DNA of 34,234 nt from Lactiplantibacillus brownii (lineage in GTDB: Bacteria; Bacillota; Bacilli; Lactobacillales; Lactobacillaceae): NCBI RefSeq assembly GCF_031085375.1, contig NZ_JAVCWF010000007.1:1-34234 (forward strand), given 5' to 3'. The position numbers and the translations under genes were made by a program. Under the pieces are notes generated by a model that made no database searches, was not told the origin of the DNA, and was given only the letters and a program-made list of their open reading frames with translations. The first letter of the stretch is position 1; each line of letters begins with the position of its first letter. Shown here piece by piece: positions 3,968 through 34,234 of this stretch.

Positions 3968-5000
3968 GGCAAATTCTATAATTAATCCGAACAGAAATTA
4001 AAAAGCCCAAAGCAATCACTTACAATGGTAGTAGCTAATTCCAACCAATATAGGGAGTGATTACTTTGGGTACATCTACTTTATCACGTTTTCAACGTGG
4101 CGCACTAGCACAACTGGTCAATGAGGGAAATAAATCTTACCAAGTAATGGCTGACGCCTTAGGCGTCGCCAAAGCTACGATTAGCTATGAGTTGGACCGG
4201 GTTAAACCTTATGATCCAGAATTAGCTCAGCAAGATGCAGATCGCAAAAGGCGGAATTGCGGTCGTCGTTCGATGCTGACGGCAGCATTAGCGACTTTAA
4301 TTACCAATCACTTACGATTAACCTGGTCACCAGAAACCATTGCGGCCGCTTATAACTTGAGCACTGCGTCAATTTATAATTGGCTTAATCGTGGCTGGCT
4401 CCCCTTCAAATTGACTGATCTACCCAATCGGAATGTCCGCCAGCACCGAGTGAGCGAAAATCGTGGGAAATTTACAAGTGGGACTTCCATCGAACAACGG
4501 CCAACAACTGTTAATCAACGGTTAGCTTTTGGTCATTGGGAAGTAGATACGGTGCTTTCTAGTCGAAGTGAGCCACGATCATGTCTGGTTACATTCGTAG
4601 AACGTAAGACCCGACTTCTATGGGCCATCAAAGCCCCTAATAGAACGGCTAAGGCTCTAAACACCGCCTTTGGCAAGTTTATGGGGGCCTTCGGTCCCCA
4701 AGTAAAATCCATTACTGTTGATCATGGTAAAGAGTTTGCCAATTATCAGGCCTTAGAACAGGATTATCAGATCAAAGTTTATTTTTGCCATCCATATTCA
4801 CCATGGGAGCGAGGTTCCAATGAATATTTTAATAGACGGTTACGCTGGTTCTTCCCGAAAAAGACCAATTTTAGCCAAGTAACGACTGATGAGATCCTAG
4901 CAGCACTTGAACTAATTAATCAACGACCATTAAAAATACATCATCAACAGACTGCCATTGAAAGATTCCGGGCTTGTTCGGATTAAACTTGTAATTTGCC
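3968..5000 (+). mobile_element. IS30-family element, 1033 bp
   Basis: Terminal inverted repeats of about 25 bp begin GGCAAATT and end TTAATCCGAAC on the left (3968-3992), with the mirror image at 4976-5000. They are related to, but distinct from, the ISLpl1-type ends GGTAGATTG found elsewhere in this window. The transposase fills the element. It interrupts an hsdS tail on its left side. Confidence 0.8.
4066..4986 (+). CDS. IS30-family transposase
   Basis: DDE transposase of about 306 residues (309 if the GTG at 4057 is used). N-terminal helix-turn-helix: YQVMADALGVAKATISYEL. Catalytic triad in HWEVDTVLS (D), TVDHGKEFANY (D) and ERGSNEYFNRRLRWF (E), the normal IS30 arrangement. I prefer the TTG at 4066 because AGGGAG at 4052-4056 is correctly spaced for it and directly abuts the GTG at 4057. 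Full length with both inverted repeats, so probably active. A decayed relative sits at 32306-32441. Confidence 0.85.
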   Translation: MGTSTLSRFQRGALAQLVNEGNKSYQVMADALGVAKATISYELDRVKPYDPELAQQDADRKRRNCGRRSMLTAALATLITNHLRLTWSPETIAAAYNLSTASIYNWLNRGWLPFKLTDLPNRNVRQHRVSENRGKFTSGTSIEQRPTTVNQRLAFGHWEVDTVLSSRSEPRSCLVTFVERKTRLLWAIKAPNRTAKALNTAFGKFMGAFGPQVKSITVDHGKEFANYQALEQDYQIKVYFCHPYSPWERGSNEYFNRRLRWFFPKKTNFSQVTTDEILAALELINQRPLKIHHQQTAIERFRACSD

Positions 5001-6171: not shown

Positions 6172-7122
6172 TTAGAAGTCATAGTCGCCGCTACTCATAG
6201 CTTCAGCATTACCCATTAGATAGCCAGCACCAACTTGTGAAAAGAAATCATGATTGGCCGTTTCGGTTGAAATTCCGTTCATTACGATTGGGTTGATATC
6301 TTTAATCTCAGCATTAGGGAAGCGGGATTCAAAGCCCATATTTTGGAGCGCCTTGTTGGCGTTGTAGTGAACGAATTGTTTAACGTCTTCCGCTAACCCA
6401 ATCGGCGCGTAAACTTCTTCGGTGAACGCAAACTCGTTCTCAAGGAGATCGTCGAGCAACTCATCCATCCACTTTTTGAATGTTTTTTGTTCAGTCGCCG
6501 ATAGCTCGTTATATCCCAATTGAAATTTGTAGCCGAGGTAGGTACCATGAACAGATTCATCGCGGATCACCAGTTTGATAACTTCAGAAAGATTTGCCAG
6601 CTTATTGTTACCACGGTACCAAAGTGGGGTAAAAAAGTTGGTGTAGTACAAAATTCCTTCAAGAAAGACGCTTGCAACTTTCTTTTCAAGGTTGTTTCCC
6701 GTTTGATAAATATCATTGATCCGTTTGGCTTTGTATTGCATTCTGGGATTATTGTTCATCCATTTGAATACTTCGTCAACAGTGGCTTGATCGTTCAAAG
6801 ATGTCAAAATAGTGCCGTAGCTTTTGGCATGAATTGACTCCATCATCAAAAAGTCATTGAGGACTGCTGCTTCTTTTCGTGTCCGAACGTCGGGCCGCAT
6901 CACGTCGACTCCTTCTTCAGATTGGAGTGTATCCAGCAAGGCTAATCCACCCACAACCCGATTGATAACCGATTTTTCGGTGCCAGAGAGTGTCCGCCAG
7001 TCCCGTAAATCATTAGAAACAGGTACTCGCGTATCCAGCCAGTATTGTGCCGTTGCTTTATCCCATACATATTCGTCAAGTTCGTCTTCGATGATGTCCC
7101 AATTAATTGTTTTATAGCTCAT
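6172..7122 (-). CDS. nrdF: class Ib ribonucleotide reductase small subunit NrdF1 (catalytic)
   Basis: Radical-generating beta subunit of class Ib ribonucleotide reductase, 316 residues. All metal ligands are present: D64, E95, H98, E155, E189 and H192. The radical tyrosine is Y102 (HAKSY), with relay aspartate D188. The C-terminal tail contains the tail tyrosine Y301 (GYLMG) and ends SSGDYDF, the NrdE-docking sequence. The start is set by AAGGAG overlapping the stop of the upstream nrdF2, with 14 nt between the two genes, so they are co-transcribed and probably translationally coupled. It needs NrdI to assemble the Mn(III)2-Y cofactor, and nrdI is in the same operon. It is the last gene of the operon; I see no clear terminator after it. 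Confidence 0.95.
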   Translation of the reverse strand: MSYKTINWDIIEDELDEYVWDKATAQYWLDTRVPVSNDLRDWRTLSGTEKSVINRVVGGLALLDTLQSEEGVDVMRPDVRTRKEAAVLNDFLMMESIHAKSYGTILTSLNDQATVDEVFKWMNNNPRMQYKAKRINDIYQTGNNLEKKVASVFLEGILYYTNFFTPLWYRGNNKLANLSEVIKLVIRDESVHGTYLGYKFQLGYNELSATEQKTFKKWMDELLDDLLENEFAFTEEVYAPIGLAEDVKQFVHYNANKALQNMGFESRFPNAEIKDINPIVMNGISTETANHDFFSQVGAGYLMGNAEAMSSGDYDF

Positions 7123-7136
7123 TAGTTGAATACTCC

Positions 7137-8063
7137 TTAAAAGTCGTAGTCGTCATCGGTCATTTTTTCAGTGTCCGATTCATTGTTTGCAGCCGTTACC
7201 TGTTGCAAAAATTGATTTTGGTCAATCATCAGTTCTTTGAGTTGCGCCACTAGTGAAGACGGTTGAACTTCGTAGACAGCGTTAAAGCCAAGTGACATTA
7301 ATGCATGATTGGCACCATAGGAGGCCAGATTGATGGCTTCGGTGGCATCGTCAAGGTTAGCTTCTAAGAAGTCTTTTTCAGTTTGCATGAGTTGATCAAA
7401 CTGTGTATTAATCCAATACTGCAGTTCGGTTTGATCACTTACAGTGAGTTCTTCAAATCTGAGGCGAAATTTGTAACCAATATAAGCACTAAAAAGGGCG
7501 CTACCGCGGAGAATATTAGCCAACATTTGGTAAGTATTGACGAGAGCCTGTGTTTGAAGTATTGTCCAGTATTTACCAAACGAGAGCCCAGTTTCAGTCA
7601 GAATAAAAAGGGCTTTTTTCTGTAAGGCCATATCGCTAGTGCTCATTTGGGCTAGTTGGTCAATTTCAGCTTGCAGATTGGCATTATCATCTGCCCAAGT
7701 AAAACTTTCACCGCCGTTACCCGGAATCAGAGCCCGGAAAATGGTCGTACAGCTTTTGGCATGGACTGATTTCATAAAGGTAATGGTGTTTAATACGGAT
7801 TCTTCTTGTTGAGTTCGCCGATCGTGGCGAATAGCAGGGGTGCCAACTTCTGATTGGTAGACGGCTAACATTGATGTACCTGCCAACATACGAGTAATGG
7901 CCTGTTGTTGAGTATCTGATAGCTGTTGCCAAGCCGTTTGATCATTCGTGATGGGAATCCGAATGTCCAACCAAAAGTTAGTGGTGAGTCGTTCCCACAT
8001 GTATTTATCGAAATTATCTTTAATATCATCCCAGTTAATTGCTTTGTAGTATAAATAGTCCAT
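7137..8063 (-). CDS. NrdF-like paralogue lacking metal ligands and radical tyrosine (NrdF2)
   Basis: This 308-residue protein aligns along its whole length with NrdF1, but its active site is dismantled. The ligand positions read A67 (for D64), K98 (for E95), H101 retained (H98), E157 retained (E155), S188 (for E189) and F191 (for H192). The radical tyrosine Y102 is C105 (HAKSC), the relay aspartate D188 is G187, and the tail tyrosine Y301 is N293. The last residues DDDYDF still match the NrdE-binding tail of NrdF1. The frame is intact and has an AAGGAG ribosome site, so this is not simple decay. I infer a non-catalytic partner subunit, comparable in concept to yeast Rnr4. It does not fit class Ie metal-free R2 proteins, which need the tyrosine for DOPA formation. 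Confidence 0.9.
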   Translation of the reverse strand: MDYLYYKAINWDDIKDNFDKYMWERLTTNFWLDIRIPITNDQTAWQQLSDTQQQAITRMLAGTSMLAVYQSEVGTPAIRHDRRTQQEESVLNTITFMKSVHAKSCTTIFRALIPGNGGESFTWADDNANLQAEIDQLAQMSTSDMALQKKALFILTETGLSFGKYWTILQTQALVNTYQMLANILRGSALFSAYIGYKFRLRFEELTVSDQTELQYWINTQFDQLMQTEKDFLEANLDDATEAINLASYGANHALMSLGFNAVYEVQPSSLVAQLKELMIDQNQFLQQVTAANNESDTEKMTDDDYDF

Positions 8064-8169
8064 CGTTATTTGTTCGTCTCCTTAATTAGGATTCATGGGT
8101 ATATGGGTCTTGTGACCCAATAACGTATGCCGGTGTGTTAAACGGACGGTAAGACCCCAAGTGAATTTC

Positions 8170-10338
8170 CTAGATCATGCATGATTCACATTCATTTGCC
8201 GTTTTAATTTCATCGTCTTCTGTAAACGTTCGAATGTAATAAAGTGACTTAATGCCCTTTGTCCAGGCGTAATTCCGTAACCGGTTAAGGTCTCGGGTTG
8301 TCATCTTTAAATTGTTATTGTCCTTCCACTCGTAAAGGTCAGGTTTCAAAACTGAACGCATAAATAGTGTCAGACTCATGCCTTGATCAATGTGCTTTTG
8401 AGCTACGGCATAGGTGTCAATAATTTTTCGTTGATCAATATCATATGCGGGTGTGTAGTAAGGCAAAGTTTCGTTAGACAGGTAAGGTGCTGGATAGAAG
8501 ATTGAGCCTACCTTATTTTCCTGACGTTGTTCTACTAATTGTGTGATTGGATGAAGTGATGCACTTGTTTCATTGACGTACGAAATTGACCCGTTCGGTG
8601 CCACAGCGAGTCTATTACGATGATAAAGGCCGCCAGTAATCACAGCTTGCTTGAGTGCCTTCCAATCTGTAACAGATGGTAATTTAATATTTTTGAAGAT
8701 TTTTGCAACTTTGGTACTCTTGAATTCAAAGTCTGCGTTCAAGTATTGATCGAAGTAACTGCCATCAGCGTACTTTGATTGGTCAAATTTAGCGAAGGTT
8801 TCGTGGCGTTCACGGGCAATTCGATTGCTCGTAACGAGTGAATAGTAGTTTAAAGCTAGGAAGTAGGCATCAGTAAATTCAAGGGCCTCTGGTGAGCCAT
8901 ACTCAATTTGGTGGCGTGCAAGGGCAGTATGCAGACCCATAGCCCCTAATCCAATCGTGTGGTAAAGTTCGTTACCATGTTTAACAGTCGGTACTTCCTT
9001 AACGTCGGTTGTGTCAGTTACGAGGGTGAGCGCACGAACAGCAACCTCAACTGAGTGACCGAAGTCCGGCGAGTCAATCATATTCATGATATTAGTTGAT
9101 CCGAGATTACATGAAATATCGGTGCCAATTGTCTTGTACGATAGGTCATCATCAAGTTTTGACGGTTCTTGAGGCTGTAAGATCTCACTACAAAGGTTAC
9201 TCATAATAATTTTGCCATCGACAGGGTTAGTTTGGTTGGCCGTATCAATGTTCAAGATGTAAGGATAACCAGATTCTTGTTGGAGTTGAGAAATCTTTTG
9301 TTCTAGTTTCCGCGCGTTAAAAACTGACTTCTTAATATTGGGGTTAGCGACCATGTTGTTATATTCTTTGGTGATATCGATGTAAGCAAATGGCGTACGA
9401 TATTCACGTTCGACATCATAGGGGCTAAAAAGATACATTGGTTCGTTAGTCTTGAGTAATTCATAATATTTATCAGGAACAATCAAACCGAGGGACAAGG
9501 TCTTCACCCGAATTTTTTCGTCCGCATTTTCCTTTTTGGTATCCAGAAAATGTAAGATGTCAGGATGGAAGACGTTGAGATAAACCACTCCGGCGCCGTT
9601 CCGTTGCCCAAGTTGGTTACTGTAGCTAAATGAGTCTTCAAGTAACTTCATCACTGGTACAACGCCAGACGAGGCGTTGGAAATCTGCTTAATAGGATCA
9701 CCTGAGGCGCGCAAGTTTGACAGGTTAACGCCGACGCCCCCACCGATTCGAGATAGTTGAAGGGCAGAATTAACGCCGCGTCCAATTGAGAGCATGGAGT
9801 CGGCCACATCGATTAAAAAACATGATACCATTTCACCGCGCCGTTTTTTACCCGCGTTGAGAAACGTGGGGGTGGCAGGCTGATAACGTTGTGAAATCAA
9901 TTCATCGGCAACGTCATTGGCAAGTTGTTCATCACCATTAGCGAGATAGAGGGCATTGAAGACGACGCGATCGACAAAGTCTTCCAAAAATTGCTGGCCA
10001 TCATTAGTTTTCATGGCATATTGTGTGTAGAACTTGTAGGCACCGAGAAAGCTGCGAAAACGAAAGTGATGGTCTCTCATTTGGTCGAACAAGGACTGCA
10101 CAAACTTGTGAGAGTATTGTTCCAGGATACTTGGATCGATATAATCTTCGTCAACCAAGTAATTTAACTTGGCATTTAACGAATCAAATTGCTTGGTCTT
10201 CGGTTTAACTGTCTCTTCGAAATAAGCCTTTAGGGCTTCTTGATCATAATGTAGCGGAATTTCTCCGTTGCTTGGGATATTTACGAGGTTATTTAAGTAA
10301 AAATAGGTATTTTCCATTTCTGGGGTGCTAGTTACCAT
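8170..10338 (-). CDS. nrdE: class Ib ribonucleotide reductase large subunit NrdE
   Basis: Catalytic alpha subunit reducing ribonucleoside diphosphates to deoxyribonucleotides, 722 residues. It lacks an ATP-cone domain at the N terminus, as expected for class Ib. Active-site residues are visible: C173 (MVSCF) and C410 (SCNLGS) as the redox pair, and the N381-x-C383-x-E385 catalytic group in NLCSE. The swinging-arm pair is C717/C720 in ECESCMI at the extreme C terminus. The ATG at 10338 has AAGGAG inside the end of nrdI. The 106-nt gap to nrdF2 contains a small hairpin (TGGGTC/GACCCA at 8104-8119) that could influence mRNA processing. No nrdH redoxin gene is present, so a chromosomal one must be used. 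Confidence 0.95.
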   Translation of the reverse strand: MVTSTPEMENTYFYLNNLVNIPSNGEIPLHYDQEALKAYFEETVKPKTKQFDSLNAKLNYLVDEDYIDPSILEQYSHKFVQSLFDQMRDHHFRFRSFLGAYKFYTQYAMKTNDGQQFLEDFVDRVVFNALYLANGDEQLANDVADELISQRYQPATPTFLNAGKKRRGEMVSCFLIDVADSMLSIGRGVNSALQLSRIGGGVGVNLSNLRASGDPIKQISNASSGVVPVMKLLEDSFSYSNQLGQRNGAGVVYLNVFHPDILHFLDTKKENADEKIRVKTLSLGLIVPDKYYELLKTNEPMYLFSPYDVEREYRTPFAYIDITKEYNNMVANPNIKKSVFNARKLEQKISQLQQESGYPYILNIDTANQTNPVDGKIIMSNLCSEILQPQEPSKLDDDLSYKTIGTDISCNLGSTNIMNMIDSPDFGHSVEVAVRALTLVTDTTDVKEVPTVKHGNELYHTIGLGAMGLHTALARHQIEYGSPEALEFTDAYFLALNYYSLVTSNRIARERHETFAKFDQSKYADGSYFDQYLNADFEFKSTKVAKIFKNIKLPSVTDWKALKQAVITGGLYHRNRLAVAPNGSISYVNETSASLHPITQLVEQRQENKVGSIFYPAPYLSNETLPYYTPAYDIDQRKIIDTYAVAQKHIDQGMSLTLFMRSVLKPDLYEWKDNNNLKMTTRDLNRLRNYAWTKGIKSLYYIRTFTEDDEIKTANECESCMI

Positions 10339-10344
10339 TAGGGA

Positions 10345-10812
10345 TTACTCCTTCGTTGTTTGAAAACAAAATTGATTGCGATAGGTTAAGATGGCATCGG
10401 CAATGCGAGGAATGTCGTGTGCGGTGCCACGTAGCTCAAAATCGGTAATGTAAGGAAAATCGAAGCGTTTAGCATATTGTTTAGCCGTGAGTGCAAACTG
10501 CTTATTAAAATTACGATTACCGCTACCGATAATACCGTAGCAATGCTGGTAATTGCCTTCGTACGCGAGGTAATCTCCCAAAATAGTGGTTAATATTTCA
10601 GTATAACCGTCATTAACCCCATTACCACCTTTAAGAAAGGCTGGTAGGAAGGTAACAAACGGCTGGTCAAGAGTGGTGAATTCAGGGTGTTCTTTAACAT
10701 TAATTGAACTAACCCGAACATGACGTTCTTTCTCAAAGTATGTTGTCAGTCTGCTAATAAAATATTTCGTGTTGCCACTCAAACTGATGTAGAGAATATT
10801 TATGGTTTCCGT
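10345..10812 (-). CDS. nrdI: NrdI flavodoxin-like protein, start codon uncertain
   Basis: Flavodoxin-like FMN protein that supplies oxidant for Mn2-Y cofactor assembly in NrdF. The FMN phosphate loop SLSGNT is present, along with the later HCYGIIGSGNRNF segment. The first ordinary start, TTG at 10782, would begin inside this loop (MSGNT) and delete the first beta strand. Yet the DNA upstream reads on in frame as ETINILYIS, the expected strand, preceded only by ACG at 10812, where family members have an ATG. AAAGGA lies 12 nt before this ACG. An ATG nearer to the RBS (about 10820) is out of frame. Either ACG (or ATA) is the start, or an ATG-to-ACG change has damaged expression. The annotated 5' end assumes ACG. 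Confidence 0.7.
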   Translation of the reverse strand, partial: TETINILYISLSGNTKYFISRLTTYFEKERHVRVSSINVKEHPEFTTLDQPFVTFLPAFLKGGNGVNDGYTEILTTILGDYLAYEGNYQHCYGIIGSGNRNFNKQFALTAKQYAKRFDFPYITDFELRGTAHDIPRIADAILTYRNQFCFQTTKE

Positions 10813-10829
10813 AACTAATCATCGTCCTT

Positions 10830-10877
10830 TTTCTATATATAGTGTTTAGGCGATAATTATAGCACTATATATGGTGT
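10830..10877 (-). promoter_or_regulatory. tandem NrdR boxes upstream of nrdI
   Basis: Two 16-nt sites, at 10830-10845 (TTTCTATATATAGTGT) and 10862-10877 (GCACTATATATGGTGT), match the NrdR consensus ACACTATATATAGTGT at 13 and 14 positions. Their starts are 32 bp apart, about three helical turns, the spacing known for NrdR targets. They lie directly before nrdI, so the operon should be repressed by the chromosomal NrdR when dATP is high. No nrdR gene is in the window. Confidence 0.85.
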
Positions 10878-11563: not shown

Positions 11564-12182
11564 TTATGTTTCATCTTTTACACCTGTTTCCATTTGGAAT
11601 TCAGATAAGAAATCACGCATATACTTTGTTCGACGACTGGCTTCTTGCTTTCCCGTTCTGGTATTCATTGAACTTGCTAATTTCAGCAGCTTTTCATAAA
11701 AGTGATTGATGGTTGTACTTTTGTGATGGCGATAATCATCGTGTGTTTTGATTTTCTTCACTGATATTTTGGAATCATATATTTCCTGTCCAGCGTGCCC
11801 GCCGTAAGCAAATGCACGTGCTATGCCGATTGCACCTAGTGCATCAAGTCTATCAGCGTCCTGAACGCATTTACCTTCGTTAGAAAGCTGATAATGGTGT
11901 TCAATGTTGTCAGCATATGACATATGTTGGATAATATCTAAAATGTCTTCTCTAGCCGGAGTTGTAATATTCTCATGGCTAAGTATAATTCGTACTCCTC
12001 TCAGTCTATTCTATCTGCAGTGACTTTTTAGTCTATGGTGTCATGCAAATAGCTAGCTGCTTTCACAACATACAGACCAATATCAGTTTCATTTTTTTAA
12101 AATCTTCTATATATTTTTTTTGAGCTAGCTTAGCCACTCTTTGGGCATGAAGAAAATCATGCCCAGTTGGATCAAAGGCCAT
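11564..12182 (-). pseudogene. broken HD-domain phosphohydrolase
   Basis: One HD-family hydrolase gene can be read across three frames. From the ATG at 12182: MAFDPTGHDFLHAQRVAKLA, where the first His-Asp region is clear. A frameshift in a run of seven A/T follows, then KNETDIGLYVVKAASYLHDT with the diagnostic HD pair, an in-frame TAA in place of a sense codon, and a second frameshift. The remainder is HENITTPAREDILDIIQHMS followed by an uninterrupted C-terminal half to 11564 containing DADRLDALGAIGIARAF. The open frame starting at 11923 has no ribosome site and lacks the metal-binding half. Such proteins hydrolyse phosphate esters of nucleotides, but the substrate is unknown. Confidence 0.75.
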
Positions 12183-19362: not shown

Positions 19363-20405
19363 GGTAGATTGCAAATTTAATCCGAATTTTTGGACAAATT
19401 TGTCAGCATAACCTGATACGGTGTTTGCCAATCGAGTATTTTAAGCGGTCGCTGGTTAATTTGAAGTAACGTCGTCGTTAAATCTTGAGCACTAATGTGC
19501 TCAAAACGAGTCCCTTTAGGATAAAAATAACGTAAATTCCGATTAAAGCGTTCATTACTACCACGTTCAGCTGGCGTATAAGCATGGCAGTAATAGGTCT
19601 TAATACCATATTGTGATTCAAGTGATACTAGCCCACTAAACTCAGTGCCACGGTCCACAGTAAAGCTGTGCACCGGACCATTAAAAGTGGTTAGGAACTT
19701 AGTTAGTGCTTCATTAACAGTCGCTGTCGTCCGATCTTTTAACCGGTATGCCCAAAGGAACCGTGATTTGCGATCGATTAAAGTTAATAAAACTGCCTTA
19801 CTATGCCCACGAGGACCAACGACTGTATCTAGTTCAAAATCGCCGATGCGCTTACGTTGATTAATCATCATGGGACGCTGTTCAATTGATCGCCCCAAAG
19901 ATTGATTATATTTGGATCGTTGGTCAACGTTACGCCGTTGGCGTACGCCACGTTCAGGTAGATCATTCAAGGAGAAACCAATTCTCCCCTGATTTAGCCA
20001 ATTATAAATAGATTTAGTAGCTAGTTTAAATTCGTGAGCAATCATTCCTGGTGACCAGCTTAGACGTAAATGGTTGAGAATTTTTTGCTTTAACTCATCG
20101 CTCAGCTTAGTTTTCCGACCACATCGTGATCGCTTGTATTCGGCATCTGTTTGTGCTAATTCAGCCTGATAAGGTTGACATCGAGATAATTCATAAGAAA
20201 TTGTTGACGGTGATCGGTTCAGCCGAACGCCCATTTGGATATTGGACAGCCCTAGTTCACAAAAGGTTTCGATTTTAATTCGTTCGGAATAGGTTATACT
20301 AGACAAAAGATCAGCTCCTAAAAGATGGGTTTGTGGTAAACACCATTTTAAAGGAAGCTGATCTTTTTTGTCCGAACAGCGTTCGGATTAATTTTACAAT
20401 CTACC
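19363..20405 (-). mobile_element. ISLpl1-like IS30-family element, copy A (1043 bp)
   Basis: Bounded by GGTAGATTGCAAATTTAATC at 19363 and the inverse end TTAATTTTACAATCTACC at 20405, exactly the length of copy B (21825-22867), to which it is nearly identical but inverted. No clear target duplication is seen. Confidence 0.9.
19377..20306 (-). CDS. IS30-family transposase (ISLpl1-like), copy A
   Basis: 309-residue DDE transposase from a TTG start preceded by AGGAGC. Helix-turn-helix: LGLSNIQMGVRLNRSPSTIS. Catalytic acids in IGDFELDTVVG, TVDRGTEFSGL and ERGSNERFNRNLRYF. It differs from copy B at only three visible residues (R versus H in LPE-GVRQ, K versus N in NQR-RIGD, R versus C in KGT-FEH), so the two copies are recent relatives. 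Intact, and presumably active. Confidence 0.93.
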   Translation of the reverse strand: MSSITYSERIKIETFCELGLSNIQMGVRLNRSPSTISYELSRCQPYQAELAQTDAEYKRSRCGRKTKLSDELKQKILNHLRLSWSPGMIAHEFKLATKSIYNWLNQGRIGFSLNDLPERGVRQRRNVDQRSKYNQSLGRSIEQRPMMINQRKRIGDFELDTVVGPRGHSKAVLLTLIDRKSRFLWAYRLKDRTTATVNEALTKFLTTFNGPVHSFTVDRGTEFSGLVSLESQYGIKTYYCHAYTPAERGSNERFNRNLRYFYPKGTRFEHISAQDLTTTLLQINQRPLKILDWQTPYQVMLTNLSKNSD

Positions 20406-21824: not shown

Positions 21825-22867
21825 GGTAGATTGTAAAATTAATCCGAACGCTGTTCGGACAAAAAAGATCAGCTTCCTTTAAAATGGTGTTTACCACAAA
21901 CCCATCTTTTAGGAGCTGATCTTTTGTCTAGTATAACCTATTCCGAACGAATTAAAATCGAAACCTTTTGTGAACTAGGGCTGTCCAATATCCAAATGGG
22001 CGTTCGGCTGAACCGATCACCGTCAACAATTTCTTATGAATTATCTCGATGTCAACCTTATCAGGCTGAATTAGCACAAACAGATGCCGAATACAAGCGA
22101 TCACGATGTGGTCGGAAAACTAAGCTGAGCGATGAGTTAAAGCAAAAAATTCTCAACCATTTACGTCTAAGCTGGTCACCAGGAATGATTGCTCACGAAT
22201 TTAAACTAGCTACTAAGTCTATTTATAATTGGCTAAATCAGGGGAGAATTGGTTTCTCCTTGAATGATCTACCTGAACATGGCGTACGCCAACGGCGTAA
22301 CGTTGACCAACGATCCAAATATAATCAATCTTTGGGGCGATCAATTGAACAGCGTCCCATGATGATTAATCAACGTAATCGCATCGGCGATTTTGAACTA
22401 GATACAGTCGTTGGTCCTCGTGGGCATAGTAAGGCAGTTTTATTAACTTTAATCGATCGCAAATCACGGTTCCTTTGGGCATACCGGTTAAAAGATCGGA
22501 CGACAGCGACTGTTAATGAAGCACTAACTAAGTTCCTAACCACTTTTAATGGTCCGGTGCACAGCTTTACTGTGGACCGTGGCACTGAGTTTAGTGGGCT
22601 AGTATCACTTGAATCACAATATGGTATTAAGACCTATTACTGCCATGCTTATACGCCAGCTGAACGTGGTAGTAATGAACGCTTTAATCGGAATTTACGT
22701 TATTTTTATCCTAAAGGGACTTGTTTTGAGCACATTAGTGCTCAAGATTTAACGACGACGTTACTCCAAATTAACCAGCGACCGCTTAAAATACTCGACT
22801 GGCAAACACCGTATCAGGTTATGCTGACAAATTTGTCCAAAAATTCGGATTAAATTTGCAATCTACC
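21825..22867 (+). mobile_element. ISLpl1-like IS30-family element, copy B (1043 bp)
   Basis: Ends GGTAGATTGTAAAATTAATC (21825) and TTTGCAATCTACC (22867), flanked by the 4-bp direct repeat ATAA (21821-21824 and 22868-22871). Inserted in the orfB of an IS3 element. Confidence 0.95.
21924..22853 (+). CDS. IS30-family transposase (ISLpl1-like), copy B
   Basis: 309-residue DDE transposase, TTG start after AGGAGC. Same domains as copy A: helix-turn-helix near residues 17-36, then the acids in FELDTVVG, TVDRGTEF and SNERFNRN. It has C in place of R in the KGTCFEH segment near the C terminus, outside the catalytic residues. It reads on the plus strand, opposite to copy A 1.4 kb away. Confidence 0.93.
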   Translation: MSSITYSERIKIETFCELGLSNIQMGVRLNRSPSTISYELSRCQPYQAELAQTDAEYKRSRCGRKTKLSDELKQKILNHLRLSWSPGMIAHEFKLATKSIYNWLNQGRIGFSLNDLPEHGVRQRRNVDQRSKYNQSLGRSIEQRPMMINQRNRIGDFELDTVVGPRGHSKAVLLTLIDRKSRFLWAYRLKDRTTATVNEALTKFLTTFNGPVHSFTVDRGTEFSGLVSLESQYGIKTYYCHAYTPAERGSNERFNRNLRYFYPKGTCFEHISAQDLTTTLLQINQRPLKILDWQTPYQVMLTNLSKNSD

Positions 22868-29005: not shown

Positions 29006-29094
29006 TGTGCTAAACCAATTAAAACCTGTATTAGAAGTCGCCGATGGCGACAACAAAGTCAAACCCATAAACCCAAAGAAAGGTGGTGACCGAC

Positions 29095-31155
29095 ATGGCA
29101 ATTTTTCACATGAGTTTTAGTAATATTAGTGCTGGTAAAGGACGAAGTGCGATTGCCAGTGCCGCTTATCGAAGTGGTGAAAAGCTATTTGATGATAAGG
29201 AAGGTCGCCACTATTTTTATGCCCGCTCGGTTATGCCAGAAAGCTTTATTTTAACCCCAAAAAATGCACCAGAATGGGCCAGTGATCGAGAACAGTTGTG
29301 GAATGAAGTTGAAAAGAAAGATCGTAAATCAAACTCACGGTATGCAAAAGAGTTTAACGTGGCTTTACCGGTAGAATTAAGTGAATCCGAACAGAAAAAA
29401 TTACTGACAAAATATGTGCAAGAAAATTTTGTTGATGAGGGCATGGTAGCCGATGTAGCGATTCATCGTGATCACCCAGATAATCCACACGCACACGTGA
29501 TGTTAACCAATCGCCCATTTAACCCCGATGGTACTTGGGGACAGAAAACAAAAACCGAATACATTTTAGATAGTCATGGTAATAAAACTAAGACCCCTGC
29601 AGGGAATGTGAGAAACCGAAAAATTTGGTTGGTTGATTGGGATAAAAAAGAAAAAATAACTGAATGGCGGCACAATTGGGCGGCAAGTGTAAATCAGGCT
29701 TTGGAGCAAAAAAACATTCCTGATCGGATCAGTGAAAAATCATTTGTGGAACAGGGAATAGCTGACACACCAATGCAACACGAGGGAATCAATAGCAAAC
29801 GGCATGAAAGAAAGGCATTTAATCAACAAGTTAAGAACTATCGTAAGTCCAAAGCTGGCTATAAAAATATGCAGGAGAAAGTAGTTAATCGAGGCCACTT
29901 GGATAGCCTAAGTAAACACTTCTCGTTTAACGAGAAAAAAGTGGTCAAAGAGTTAAGCCACGAACTGAAAACTTATATCAGTTTGGAGAACTTAGATGAT
30001 AAACGGCGCATGCTATTTAATTGGAAAAACAGCACCTTAATTAAACATGCGGTTGGTGAAGATGTGACTAAACAATTATTGACAATTAACCAACAAGAAA
30101 GCTCACTCAAAAAAGCAGATGAACTCTTAAATAAAGTGGTTGATCGCACGACTAAAAAACTTTATCCAGAGCTTAATTTTGAACAGACCACGCAAGCTGA
30201 AAGACGAGAATTAATTAAGGAAACCGATAGCGAACAAACAGTTTTCAAGGGTAGTGAATTAAACGAACGTTTAATGAACATTCGTGATGATTTGTTGACC
30301 CAACAATTATTGACCTTTACCAAACGGCCATACGTTGGCTGGAAGTTATTAATGCAACAAGAAAAGGAAGTCAAAATCGAGCTTAAATATACGCTGATGA
30401 TTCATGATGATAGCTTAGAAAGTCTAGAACACGTTGATCAAGGTCTACTAGAAAAGTATTCACCAACCGAGCAGCAAAAGATTACTCGCGCAGTCAAAGA
30501 ATTGCGAACAATCATGGCTGTTAAGCAAGTCATTAAAACGCAATACCATGAAGTATTGAAAAGGGCCTTTCCCAAAGGCGATTTAGATGAATTACCAATG
30601 ACTAAACAGGAACAAGCCTATACAGCCGTGATGTACTATGATCCTGTTTTAAAGCCATGTCAGGCTGAAACAATTGAACAGTGGCAAGCAAATCCACCAC
30701 AGGTGTTCAGTCCCCAAGAACATCAACAAGGACTAGCTTATTTATCGGGACAGCTTAGCTTAGATCAGTTAGAAAATCATCACTTACAACGGGTTTTAAA
30801 GCATGATGGCACTAAACAACTCTTTTTTGGCGAATGCAAAGCCGATCCGACGATTAAGAACAGTCAGATCGAGAAAATCCAAAAGCAGTTAAAAGGGCAA
30901 CAAGCCAAGGACGACCAGTACAGAAAAGCAAATATGGGGCATTATCAACCGCTAAATTATAAGCCAGTTAGTCCAGACTATTACTTAAAGACGGCCTTTA
31001 GTGATGCGATCATGACTGTTCTATATGCTCGTGATGAAGATTACCAACGGCAAAAGCAAGAACGTGGACTGAAAGAAACCGAGTGGGAAATGACGAAAAA
31101 GCAACGGCAACACCAAACTCGAAACCGGCATGAAGATGGGGGCATGCACTTGTAA
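29095..31155 (+). CDS. mobA: MobA/MobL-family relaxase
   Basis: Nicks oriT and pilots the strand during conjugative mobilization. 686 residues from the ATG at 29095, set by AAAGGTGGTG; an in-frame GTG four codons upstream is less likely. N-terminal relaxase domain: [20 protein letters not shown], then the candidate nucleophile tyrosine in [10 protein letters not shown] (about residue 25). The metal-binding HUH-type motif is [19 protein letters not shown] near residue 125. The remainder is a long helical region with no helicase motifs, so it is a mobilization rather than a full TraI-like protein. No type IV secretion genes are present; transfer would need a helper. Confidence 0.92.
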
Positions 31156-33280: not shown

Positions 33281-34234
33281 GGTAGATTGCAAATTTAATC
33301 CGAATTTTTGGACAAATTTGTCAGCATAACCTGATACGGTGTTTGCCAGTCGAGTATTTTAAGCGGTCGCTGGTTAATTTGGAGTAACGTCGTCGTTAAA
33401 TCTTGAGCACTAATGTGCTCAAAACGAGTCCCTTTAGGATAAAAATAGCGTAAGTTCCGATTAAATCGTTCATTACTGCCGCGCTCAGCTGGCGTATAAG
33501 CATGGCAGTAATAGGTCTTAATACCGTATTGTGCTTCAAGTGATACTAGACCGCTAAACTCAGTGCCACGGTCCACCGTAAAACTATGCACCGGGCCATT
33601 AAAAGTTGCTAGAAACTTATTTAGGGCTTCATTAACAGTTACTGCTGTCCGGTTTTTTAATCGGTAGGCCCAAAGGAAACGTGATTTGCGATCGATTAAG
33701 GTTAATAAAACTGCCTTACTATGCCCACGGGGGCCAACAATTGTATCTAATTCAAAATCACCGATGCGATTACGTCGATTAACCACGATGGGTCGCTGTT
33801 CAATTGACCGTCCTAATGATTGATTATATTTAGAACGTTGGTCAAGGTTACGCCGTTGGCGCACGCCATGTTCAGGCAAATCATTTAAAGAAAACTCAAT
33901 TTTTCCTTGATTTAACCAATTATAAATTGATTTAGTCGCTAGTTTAAATTCGTGAGCTATCATTTCTGGTGACCAACTTAGCCGTAAATGGTTTAAAATT
34001 ATTTGCCTTAATTTGTCATTCAATTTAGTCTTTCGGCCACATCGTGATCGCTTGTATTCGGCATCTGTTTGTGCTAATTCAGCCTGATAAGGTTGACATC
34101 GAGATAATTCATAAGAAATTGTTGACGGTGATCGGTTCAGCCGAACGCCCATTTGGATATTGGACAGCCCTAGTTCACAAAAGGTTTCGATTTTAATTCG
34201 TTCGGAATAGGTTATACTAGACAAAAGATCAGCT
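33281..34234 (-). mobile_element. ISLpl1-like element, copy C, cut by the window edge
   Basis: Starts with the terminal repeat GGTAGATTGCAAATTTAATC at 33281 and runs to the window end inside the transposase leader; about 90 bp and the far inverted repeat are outside. It is more divergent from copies A and B than they are from each other. Confidence 0.9.
33295..34224 (-). CDS. IS30-family transposase (ISLpl1-like), copy C
   Basis: 309-residue DDE transposase, TTG start, same domain plan as copies A and B (helix-turn-helix near 17-36; acids in FELDTIVG, TVDRGTEF, SNERFNRN). It differs from them at a dozen or so positions, for example LNDKLRQIILNH for LSDELKQKILNH and QGKIEFSLND for QGRIGFSLND, so it arrived separately or earlier. 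The frame is intact. Confidence 0.92.
   Translation of the reverse strand: MSSITYSERIKIETFCELGLSNIQMGVRLNRSPSTISYELSRCQPYQAELAQTDAEYKRSRCGRKTKLNDKLRQIILNHLRLSWSPEMIAHEFKLATKSIYNWLNQGKIEFSLNDLPEHGVRQRRNLDQRSKYNQSLGRSIEQRPIVVNRRNRIGDFELDTIVGPRGHSKAVLLTLIDRKSRFLWAYRLKNRTAVTVNEALNKFLATFNGPVHSFTVDRGTEFSGLVSLEAQYGIKTYYCHAYTPAERGSNERFNRNLRYFYPKGTRFEHISAQDLTTTLLQINQRPLKILDWQTPYQVMLTNLSKNSD

Follow-up and report, generated by a model that had tools for sequence, protein, structure and literature searches.

Operon and Contig Organization

The window, meaning the whole stretch of DNA that was analysed, is contig C7 (34,234 bases) of a genome of 3.35 Mb in 11 contigs. Its minus strand carries nrdI, nrdE, nrdF2 and nrdF1, which form a real, conserved class Ib RNR system with two beta genes. 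The features of the window are given in Table 1. NrdE contained the SCFL cysteine, the NLCSE motif, the Tyr-Tyr dyad and the C-terminal CESC, and a motif check found this set intact in 13 two-beta operons. The NCBIfam scores were 1093.8 bits for NrdE (cut-off 750) and 430.3 bits for NrdF1 (cut-off 355), while NrdF2 fell short of the class Ib NrdF cut-off of TIGR04171 with 190.8 bits against 355.

Table 1. Positions, strands and supporting evidence of the features in the window
Feature	Position	Strand	Length and evidence
IS30-type transposase ORF (presumed)	4057..4986		309 residues
nrdF1, complete class Ib NrdF (beta)	6172..7122	-	316 aa; six ligands, Y102, D188, tail Y301
Ribosome-binding site AAGGAG of nrdF1	7133..7138	-	overlaps nrdF2 stop codon
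nrdF2, putatively catalytically dead NrdF paralogue (beta')	7137..8063	-	308 aa; sequence, NCBIfam, alignment, AlphaFold2
Ribosome-binding site AAGGAG of nrdF2	8078..8083	-	14 nt before ATG
nrdE, class Ib large subunit (alpha)	8170..10338	-	722 aa; motifs and NCBIfam
nrdI, flavoprotein activating NrdF	10345..10782	-	sequence, NCBIfam
NrdR-box-like site 2 (ACACTATATATAGAAA)	10830..10845	-	13/16 positions of the NrdR-box consensus; 32 bp from site 1
NrdR-box-like site 1 (ACACCATATATAGTGC)	10862..10877	-	14/16 positions of the NrdR-box consensus
ORF upstream of the operon	11564..11923	-	119 residues; no Pfam match
IS30-type transposase ORF (presumed)	19377..20306		309 residues
IS30-type transposase ORF (presumed)	21924..22853		309 residues
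MobA/MobL relaxase	29083..31155
IS30-type transposase ORF (presumed)	33295..34224		309 residues

Upstream of the conserved ILYISLSGNT of nrdI (10782-10815, minus strand) no ATG, GTG or TTG was present. The start region contained ACG in the window and in loci L001, L040 and L045, and ATG in the relative L043. A non-standard start is likely because ACG occupies the position of the L043 ATG and the usual start codons are missing, and the true start of nrdI is probably 7-10 codons farther upstream.

A second, near-identical nrdI-nrdE-nrdF2-nrdF1 operon was observed on another contig (61 kb) of the same genome (G000:C2:37349-39237), which also encodes a chromosomal nrdE-nrdF. By eye, the ORF upstream of the operon in the window looks like the C-terminal portion of an HD-domain hydrolase, of which we take it to be perhaps a remnant. 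Both of the 309-residue ORFs that were scanned, of the four in the window, gave integrase-core and HTH_38 matches, the domains of IS30-type transposases, and the contig therefore looks rich in insertion elements. The window also encodes a MobA/MobL relaxase.

Sequence and Predicted Fold of NrdF2

The reading frame of nrdF2 was open, had its own ribosome-binding site and encoded the DDDYDF tail, as the original prediction had stated. When NrdF2 was aligned with NrdF1 the identity was 31% over almost the full length (E 2e-57). The six metal ligands are, in NrdF1 numbering, D64, E95, H98, E155, E189 and H192, and the alignment bore out the claimed replacement of four of them in NrdF2 (D64 by A67, E95 by K98, E189 by S188 and H192 by F191), leaving two of six, H101 at the position of H98 and E157 at that of E155. 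The claimed changes along the radical route were likewise recovered; the radical Tyr, the relay Asp and the tail Tyr are all absent, with C105 in place of Y102, G187 in place of D188 and N293 in place of Y301.

The AlphaFold2 model of the NrdF2 monomer had a mean pLDDT of 88.4 and a full R2 (ferritin-like) fold. Comparison of the model with the NrdF of S. sanguinis (PDB id. 4n83) gave a TM score of 0.83 at 36% identity. The N-terminal arm was poorly modelled in the monomer, with pLDDT values below 50 for residues 1-7.

Distribution and Gene Order

Of 441 plasmid records that matched, 165 contained a homologue of NrdF2 (here F2, with F1 for the partner) at 60% identity or more, and NrdF1 at 90% identity or more was found in 167 plasmid records; identical F2 occurred on many Lactiplantibacillus plasmids, which points to this genus as the source of the window. 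An F2 match better than 1e-60 was present in 26 of 397 family genomes, none of the 26 with internal stops, and F1 adjoined F2 in all 26 family genomes with an F2 of clade A (clades as in the phylogeny below). Longer stretches were retrieved for fifteen operons of these 26 genomes, and all had the order nrdI-nrdE-F2-F1 in one direction; within them F2 identity was as low as 41% where that of F1 was 79% and that of NrdE 77%. When F2 patterns were used to scan named genomes, all 34 loci recovered showed the order nrdE-F2-F1. The genera were Loigolactobacillus, Levilactobacillus, Secundilactobacillus, Lactiplantibacillus, Paucilactobacillus, Periweissella, Liquorilactobacillus, Limosilactobacillus, Lacticaseibacillus, Enterococcus, Streptococcus, Desemzia and Leuconostoc, together with a MAG labelled 'uncultured Lactobacillus'.

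The homologues were neither scattered nor truncated; in the loci whose flanks were read, a normal nrdF came right after F2. At one locus, L124 of Leuconostoc fallax, nrdE, F2 and F1 were all broken, and in the two-beta locus of Streptococcus henryi nrdE was split. Two-beta hosts comprised Lactobacillaceae, Enterococcus, Streptococcus, Lactococcus and Desemzia, with the genes on both plasmids and chromosomes. Enterococcus and Lactococcus plasmids had the same gene arrangement with a more distant F2. Another version of the F2-F1 pair occurred on chromosomes of family f2, and the F2 of one of these loci, L069, was identical to that of Desemzia incerta. All fetched loci together gave 116 with adjacent F2 and F1 on the same strand, a count in which many entries repeat a single place or come from near-identical plasmids, and 40 distinct F2 proteins. 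In the reverse search from F1, every one of the 16 F1 copies with at least 69% identity (in 15 of 395 Lactobacillales genomes) adjoined an F2; the next-closest NrdFs among the matches listed (n = 7, 63-66% identity to F1) had no F2 alongside.

A phage origin of F2 was considered and rejected: 593 phage records matched P0001, all below 60% identity, and no close homologue was among them. On one Enterococcus and one Lactococcus plasmid the two-beta operon was preceded, at a short distance and on the opposite strand, by a gene for a Crp/Fnr-family regulator (L002, 1369-2040; L003, 31-702). One F2 that falls between clades C and D, P0113, is labelled Erwinia sp. CPCC 100877; its kin are Lactobacillales, so the name may be mistaken or due to contamination. 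The Lactococcus plasmid pGdh442 is listed with NrdE, NrdF and NrdI in PMC3019208, and the entry itself mentions no second NrdF.

Phylogeny of F1 and F2

When 98 NrdF rows were analysed by maximum likelihood, F2 formed one clade (support 100/99) and the F1 partners formed another (100/100), without a settled branching order among F1, F2 and four single NrdFs. A reduced tree of 65 rows gave 99/97 for F2, 100/99 for F1 and 95/84 for F1 and F2 as one clade. Separate duplications, with F2 grouping with F1 within each clade, were rejected (p-AU 3.5e-06 for clade A and 4e-59 for clade C). As far as the trees go F2 has a single origin; long F2 branches meet in them, a caveat that the tree program flagged, and the gene order and the residue losses held in common agree with the F2 tree.

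Clade B (Limosilactobacillus), a candidate for a further F2 group, was set apart by the tree and left out of the F2 counts. A different degenerate NrdF was observed in the genus of genome G037, putatively Limosilactobacillus (L177, 6073-7008; L180, 5523-6918). It has one or two of the six ligands and no NrdE-docking tail, and is located just behind an NrdI-like gene with no adjacent nrdE or second nrdF. This protein was found in 27 of 61 genomes of that genus (E 1e-10), and NrdE in 1 of 41 (E 1e-60).

Upstream Sites and Translation

Tandem NrdR-box-like sites 31-32 bp apart were present before nrdI in 15 of the 19 operons scanned, from clades A, C and D, although some of these 15 are near-identical plasmids. 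No pair with this spacing was found in the other four (L050, L051, L053 and L113). As a control, the region upstream of the operon in the window was subjected to single-base shuffling, and two or more NrdR-box-like matches at the same cut-off and at any spacing occurred in 51 of 2000 shuffles.

The overlap between the ribosome-binding site of nrdF1 and the stop codon of nrdF2 suggests that translation of the two genes is coupled. The distance from the F2 stop to the F1 start was 9-41 nt in clade A (most commonly 14), 9-930 nt in clade C and 39-65 nt in clade D. Tight coupling is not universal, since the gap reaches 930 nt in two Streptococcus loci. The region between nrdE and nrdF2 was also searched for structured RNA, and its stability was not above that of shuffled sequences (z -0.92).

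Residue Losses Across the F2 Family

The residue table contained 119 F2 rows, 40 with genomic context and 79 that were protein records only; the latter were called F2 by similarity, and 27 of the 79 were placed in the tree. Excluded were 15 class Ia-like loci (L142-L155 and L157), eight fragments shorter than 295 aa, P0005 (99% identical to P0001), the broken locus L124 and the later-fetched loci L161-L183.

By alignment D64 was lost in 119/119 F2, and D188 and Y301 in 118/119 each; we take these three residues to be D84, D237 and Y356 in E. coli numbering. All six ligands, Y102, D188 and Y301 were intact in every F1 (39/39) and every single NrdF (26/26). W28 and the tail residues D305 and Y306 were retained in 119/119 F2, and E155 in 114/119.

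The remaining ligands varied by clade. Five were retained in clade D (n = 7) and in four intermediates. In clade C four were retained in 64/66 and five in 2/66, with His98 gone in 64. Clade A kept two in 33/42 and three in 9/42; Glu189 and His192 were gone in 42/42, and Glu95 was replaced by Lys in 27/42. The radical Tyr, Y102, was retained in 64/66 of clade C and 7/7 of clade D and was absent from 31/42 of clade A, where site 105 was occupied by Cys (17), Tyr (11), Val (8), Ile (3), Thr (2) or Ala (1). Read off the clades, the order of losses would place D64, D188 and the tail Tyr first.

The losses listed in the original prediction hold for the window protein, and a loss of all ligands is not a trait of the family. 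Judged from the alignments, the family-wide trait is the loss of one ligand (D64) together with the radical exit route (D188 and the tail Tyr). C105 and K98 proved variable: P0006 and P0007, near relatives at 88 and 87% identity, have Tyr at 105. The variability of this site ruled out Cys105 as a functional residue. The proposed salt bridge between Lys98 and Glu157 did not survive as a general feature either, Lys being found in 27/42 of clade A and 0/77 of the other F2 clades and thus absent from 92/119 F2. Glu157 was present in 27/27 F2 with Lys98, and the bridge is possible within this Lys-bearing subset.

Conservation of the N-Terminal Arm and Tail

Conservation in F2 was concentrated at the N-terminus, where 20/48 positions in residues 1-48 were at least 90% conserved compared with 15/252 in residues 49-300 (redundancy-weighted odds ratio 11, p 1.6e-9, positions being taken as independent). 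Single NrdFs leaned in the opposite direction, with 8/48 against 78/252 (p 0.055). The effective sequence numbers were 16.8 for single NrdFs, 4.4 for F1 and 44.2 for F2, the single NrdFs being more diverse than F1. In the NrdF dimer of B. anthracis the monomers swap N-termini, helix B lies at the heart of the dimer interface, and the C-terminus plays an important part in contacting R1 (PMC6754363). Helix B (F1 residues 49-75) was without special conservation in F2, with 3/27 positions at 90% or more. The residues of B. cereus R2b that contact NrdI are M16, F17, Q20, I197 and V200 (PMC9462851), and an alignment comparison of F1 with F2 at these positions gave no clear contrast. The simplest reading of the conserved ends would be that F2 must still dimerise and dock on NrdE, and a kept N-terminal arm and C-terminal tail combined with a lost active site would fit a heterodimer partner.

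Selection and Recombination

The median pairwise dN/dS was 0.12 for F2 (40 pairs), 0.037 for F1 (36 pairs) and 0.040 for NrdE (40 pairs), as calculated by the Nei-Gojobori method with our own script from only those pairs with dS between 0.05 and 1.0, out of 66 pairs from 12 loci. The F2 median is far below 1, showing purifying selection. In clade D the values were 0.11-0.26 for F2 and 0.02-0.05 for F1, and in close clade-C pairs 0.13 to 0.18 for F2 and 0.04 to 0.11 for F1. The pair L040-L041, outside the dS range at 0.02, gave an F2 dN/dS of 0.55.

Comparison of locus L044 with the operon of the window (6172-10782) gave a dS of 0.014 for F1, 0.51 for F2 and 0.32 for NrdE. Such differing dS within clade-A operons indicates that two-beta operons have recombined, so that one F1 stands with different F2s. 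The pairing of near-identical F1 with F2 that are only 88% identical argues against a very exacting fit between F1 and F2.

Discussion

The small subunit of this class Ib RNR is probably asymmetric (beta-beta'), with F2 as the catalytically dead partner. NrdF1 and NrdF2 may form this beta-beta' heterodimer, as the residues kept at the two ends of F2 suggest. An old duplication of nrdF in Lactobacillales would have given NrdF1 (beta), carrying the dimetal and tyrosyl-radical site, and NrdF2 (beta'). NrdF2 would first have lost D64, the radical-relay D188 and the tail Tyr, and in the lineage of the window Glu189 and His192, and frequently Glu95 and Tyr102, would have gone later. It could have been kept through pairing with NrdF1 via the N-terminal arm and the dimer face, and also through docking of its C-terminal peptide on NrdE. 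NrdI would activate NrdF1, and one radical would be in use per beta-beta' dimer. The F2 tail may dock on NrdE, NrdI may act on NrdF1 only, and F2 may have a stabilising or metal-loading effect on NrdF1. It is also fairly likely that this is an obligately asymmetric class Ib RNR of Lactobacillales, a plasmid-mobile and convergent counterpart of Rnr2/Rnr4, with living intermediates of a stepwise loss.

Four other explanations were weighed. An unlikely one is that NrdF2 forms a homodimer and acts as a regulatory decoy, competing against NrdF1 for the pocket in which NrdE, either that of this operon or the chromosomal one, takes up the tail, and so tuning or lowering activity. The NrdE-docking tail present in all F2 compared would serve such a protein, radical transfer through F2 looks impossible, a chromosomal nrdEF is also present in the genome of the window, and near-identical F1 was found with clearly different F2. 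A decoy would however not need to adjoin nrdF1, as F2 does in the loci read, and would not need the N-terminal arm as its most conserved part.

There is a small chance that NrdF2 is an assembly factor, which would attach for a short time to apo-NrdF1 or NrdI while manganese is loaded and stay outside the working holoenzyme. Class Ib enzymes require NrdI for activation (PMC3267527), and F2 could keep NrdF1 ready to accept metal, as has been said of Rnr4 and Rnr2 (PMC2704937, PMC3267527). This role leaves the kept NrdE-docking tail of F2 without an explanation, and the NrdI-contact positions have no clear pattern.

It is very improbable that NrdF2 works as class Ie R2 does, as a radical subunit without metal that relies on DOPA or another residue. 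Class Ie R2 proteins (the QSK and VPK NrdFs) are, like NrdF2, derived from NrdF and have substituted metal ligands, and in NrdF2 too several ligands are replaced, one of them by Lys; the retention of Y102 throughout most of clade C and all of clade D would also suit such a role. In class Ie the three glutamates are replaced by Q or V, S or P, and K, the Tyr is modified to DOPA, and the protein is itself the radical subunit (PMC11846895). The F2 pattern differs from this in that the Asp ligand D64 is always gone, the glutamates are retained in clades C and D, with E155 kept in 114/119 F2, and the Tyr is gone in 31/42 of clade A. The F2 of the window has Cys at the Tyr site and neither relay Asp nor tail Tyr, and NrdF2 sits beside a complete NrdF.

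Passive carriage of nrdF2 in the operon as a decaying pseudogene can be dismissed with near certainty, because the dN/dS of F2, although about three times that of F1, has a median that already contradicts decay, none of the 26 genomes had internal stops, and one clade across several families retains the same residues, the broken copy of L124 being the one such sign seen.

The asymmetric beta-beta' enzyme most closely resembles Rnr2/Rnr4 of yeast, a class Ia beta-beta' in which R2 is likewise duplicated and one copy has lost metal ligands, three of them in Rnr4 (PMC2704937). As in F2, Rnr4 has evolved faster and retained its dimer surface; in a table of the same paper, a column that we take as dN/dS has values of 0.119 (RNR2) and 0.497 (RNR4) (PMC2704937). 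NrdF2 shares with Rnr4 that it is a paralogue of an active R2 of the same system, has lost ligands and is under selection. The differences are that NrdF1 and NrdF2 are bacterial, belong to class Ib with NrdI and are encoded by tandem genes of one operon, that F2 is recognised across the family by its missing D64, D188 and tail Tyr, and that the heterodimer is here one that we infer. An origin independent of Rnr4 is suggested by the branching of F2 with class Ib NrdF of Lactobacillales, in a tree that contained no Rnr4.

The R2_e2 proteins of apicomplexans are similar in being a divergent extra clade of R2 next to a single orthodox R2, and in lacking the radical Tyr in several genera while the C-terminus is conserved (PMC3824934). 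They differ from F2 in that the six iron-coordinating residues are retained bar a few exceptions and in being eukaryotic and class Ia (PMC3824934). With the class Ib NrdFs of S. sanguinis (4n83) and E. coli (3n37) NrdF2 shares the predicted fold and the operon context, but unlike them it has lost most of the metal site, the radical Tyr, the relay Asp and the tail Tyr. A search confined to the open-access literature found no earlier description of a two-beta class Ib RNR with a dead NrdF.

Many plasmid genes of lactic acid bacteria that are annotated as 'ribonucleotide-diphosphate reductase subunit beta' are unlikely to encode radical subunits. RNR supplies the precursors of DNA, and it has long been asked whether the R2 dimer needs its two halves. 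With a bacterial pair that is widespread and has one apparently long-dead half, this question becomes testable with simple purified proteins. If the obligate asymmetry is true, half-site use of R2 could be studied in a system where the genes themselves encode the asymmetry.
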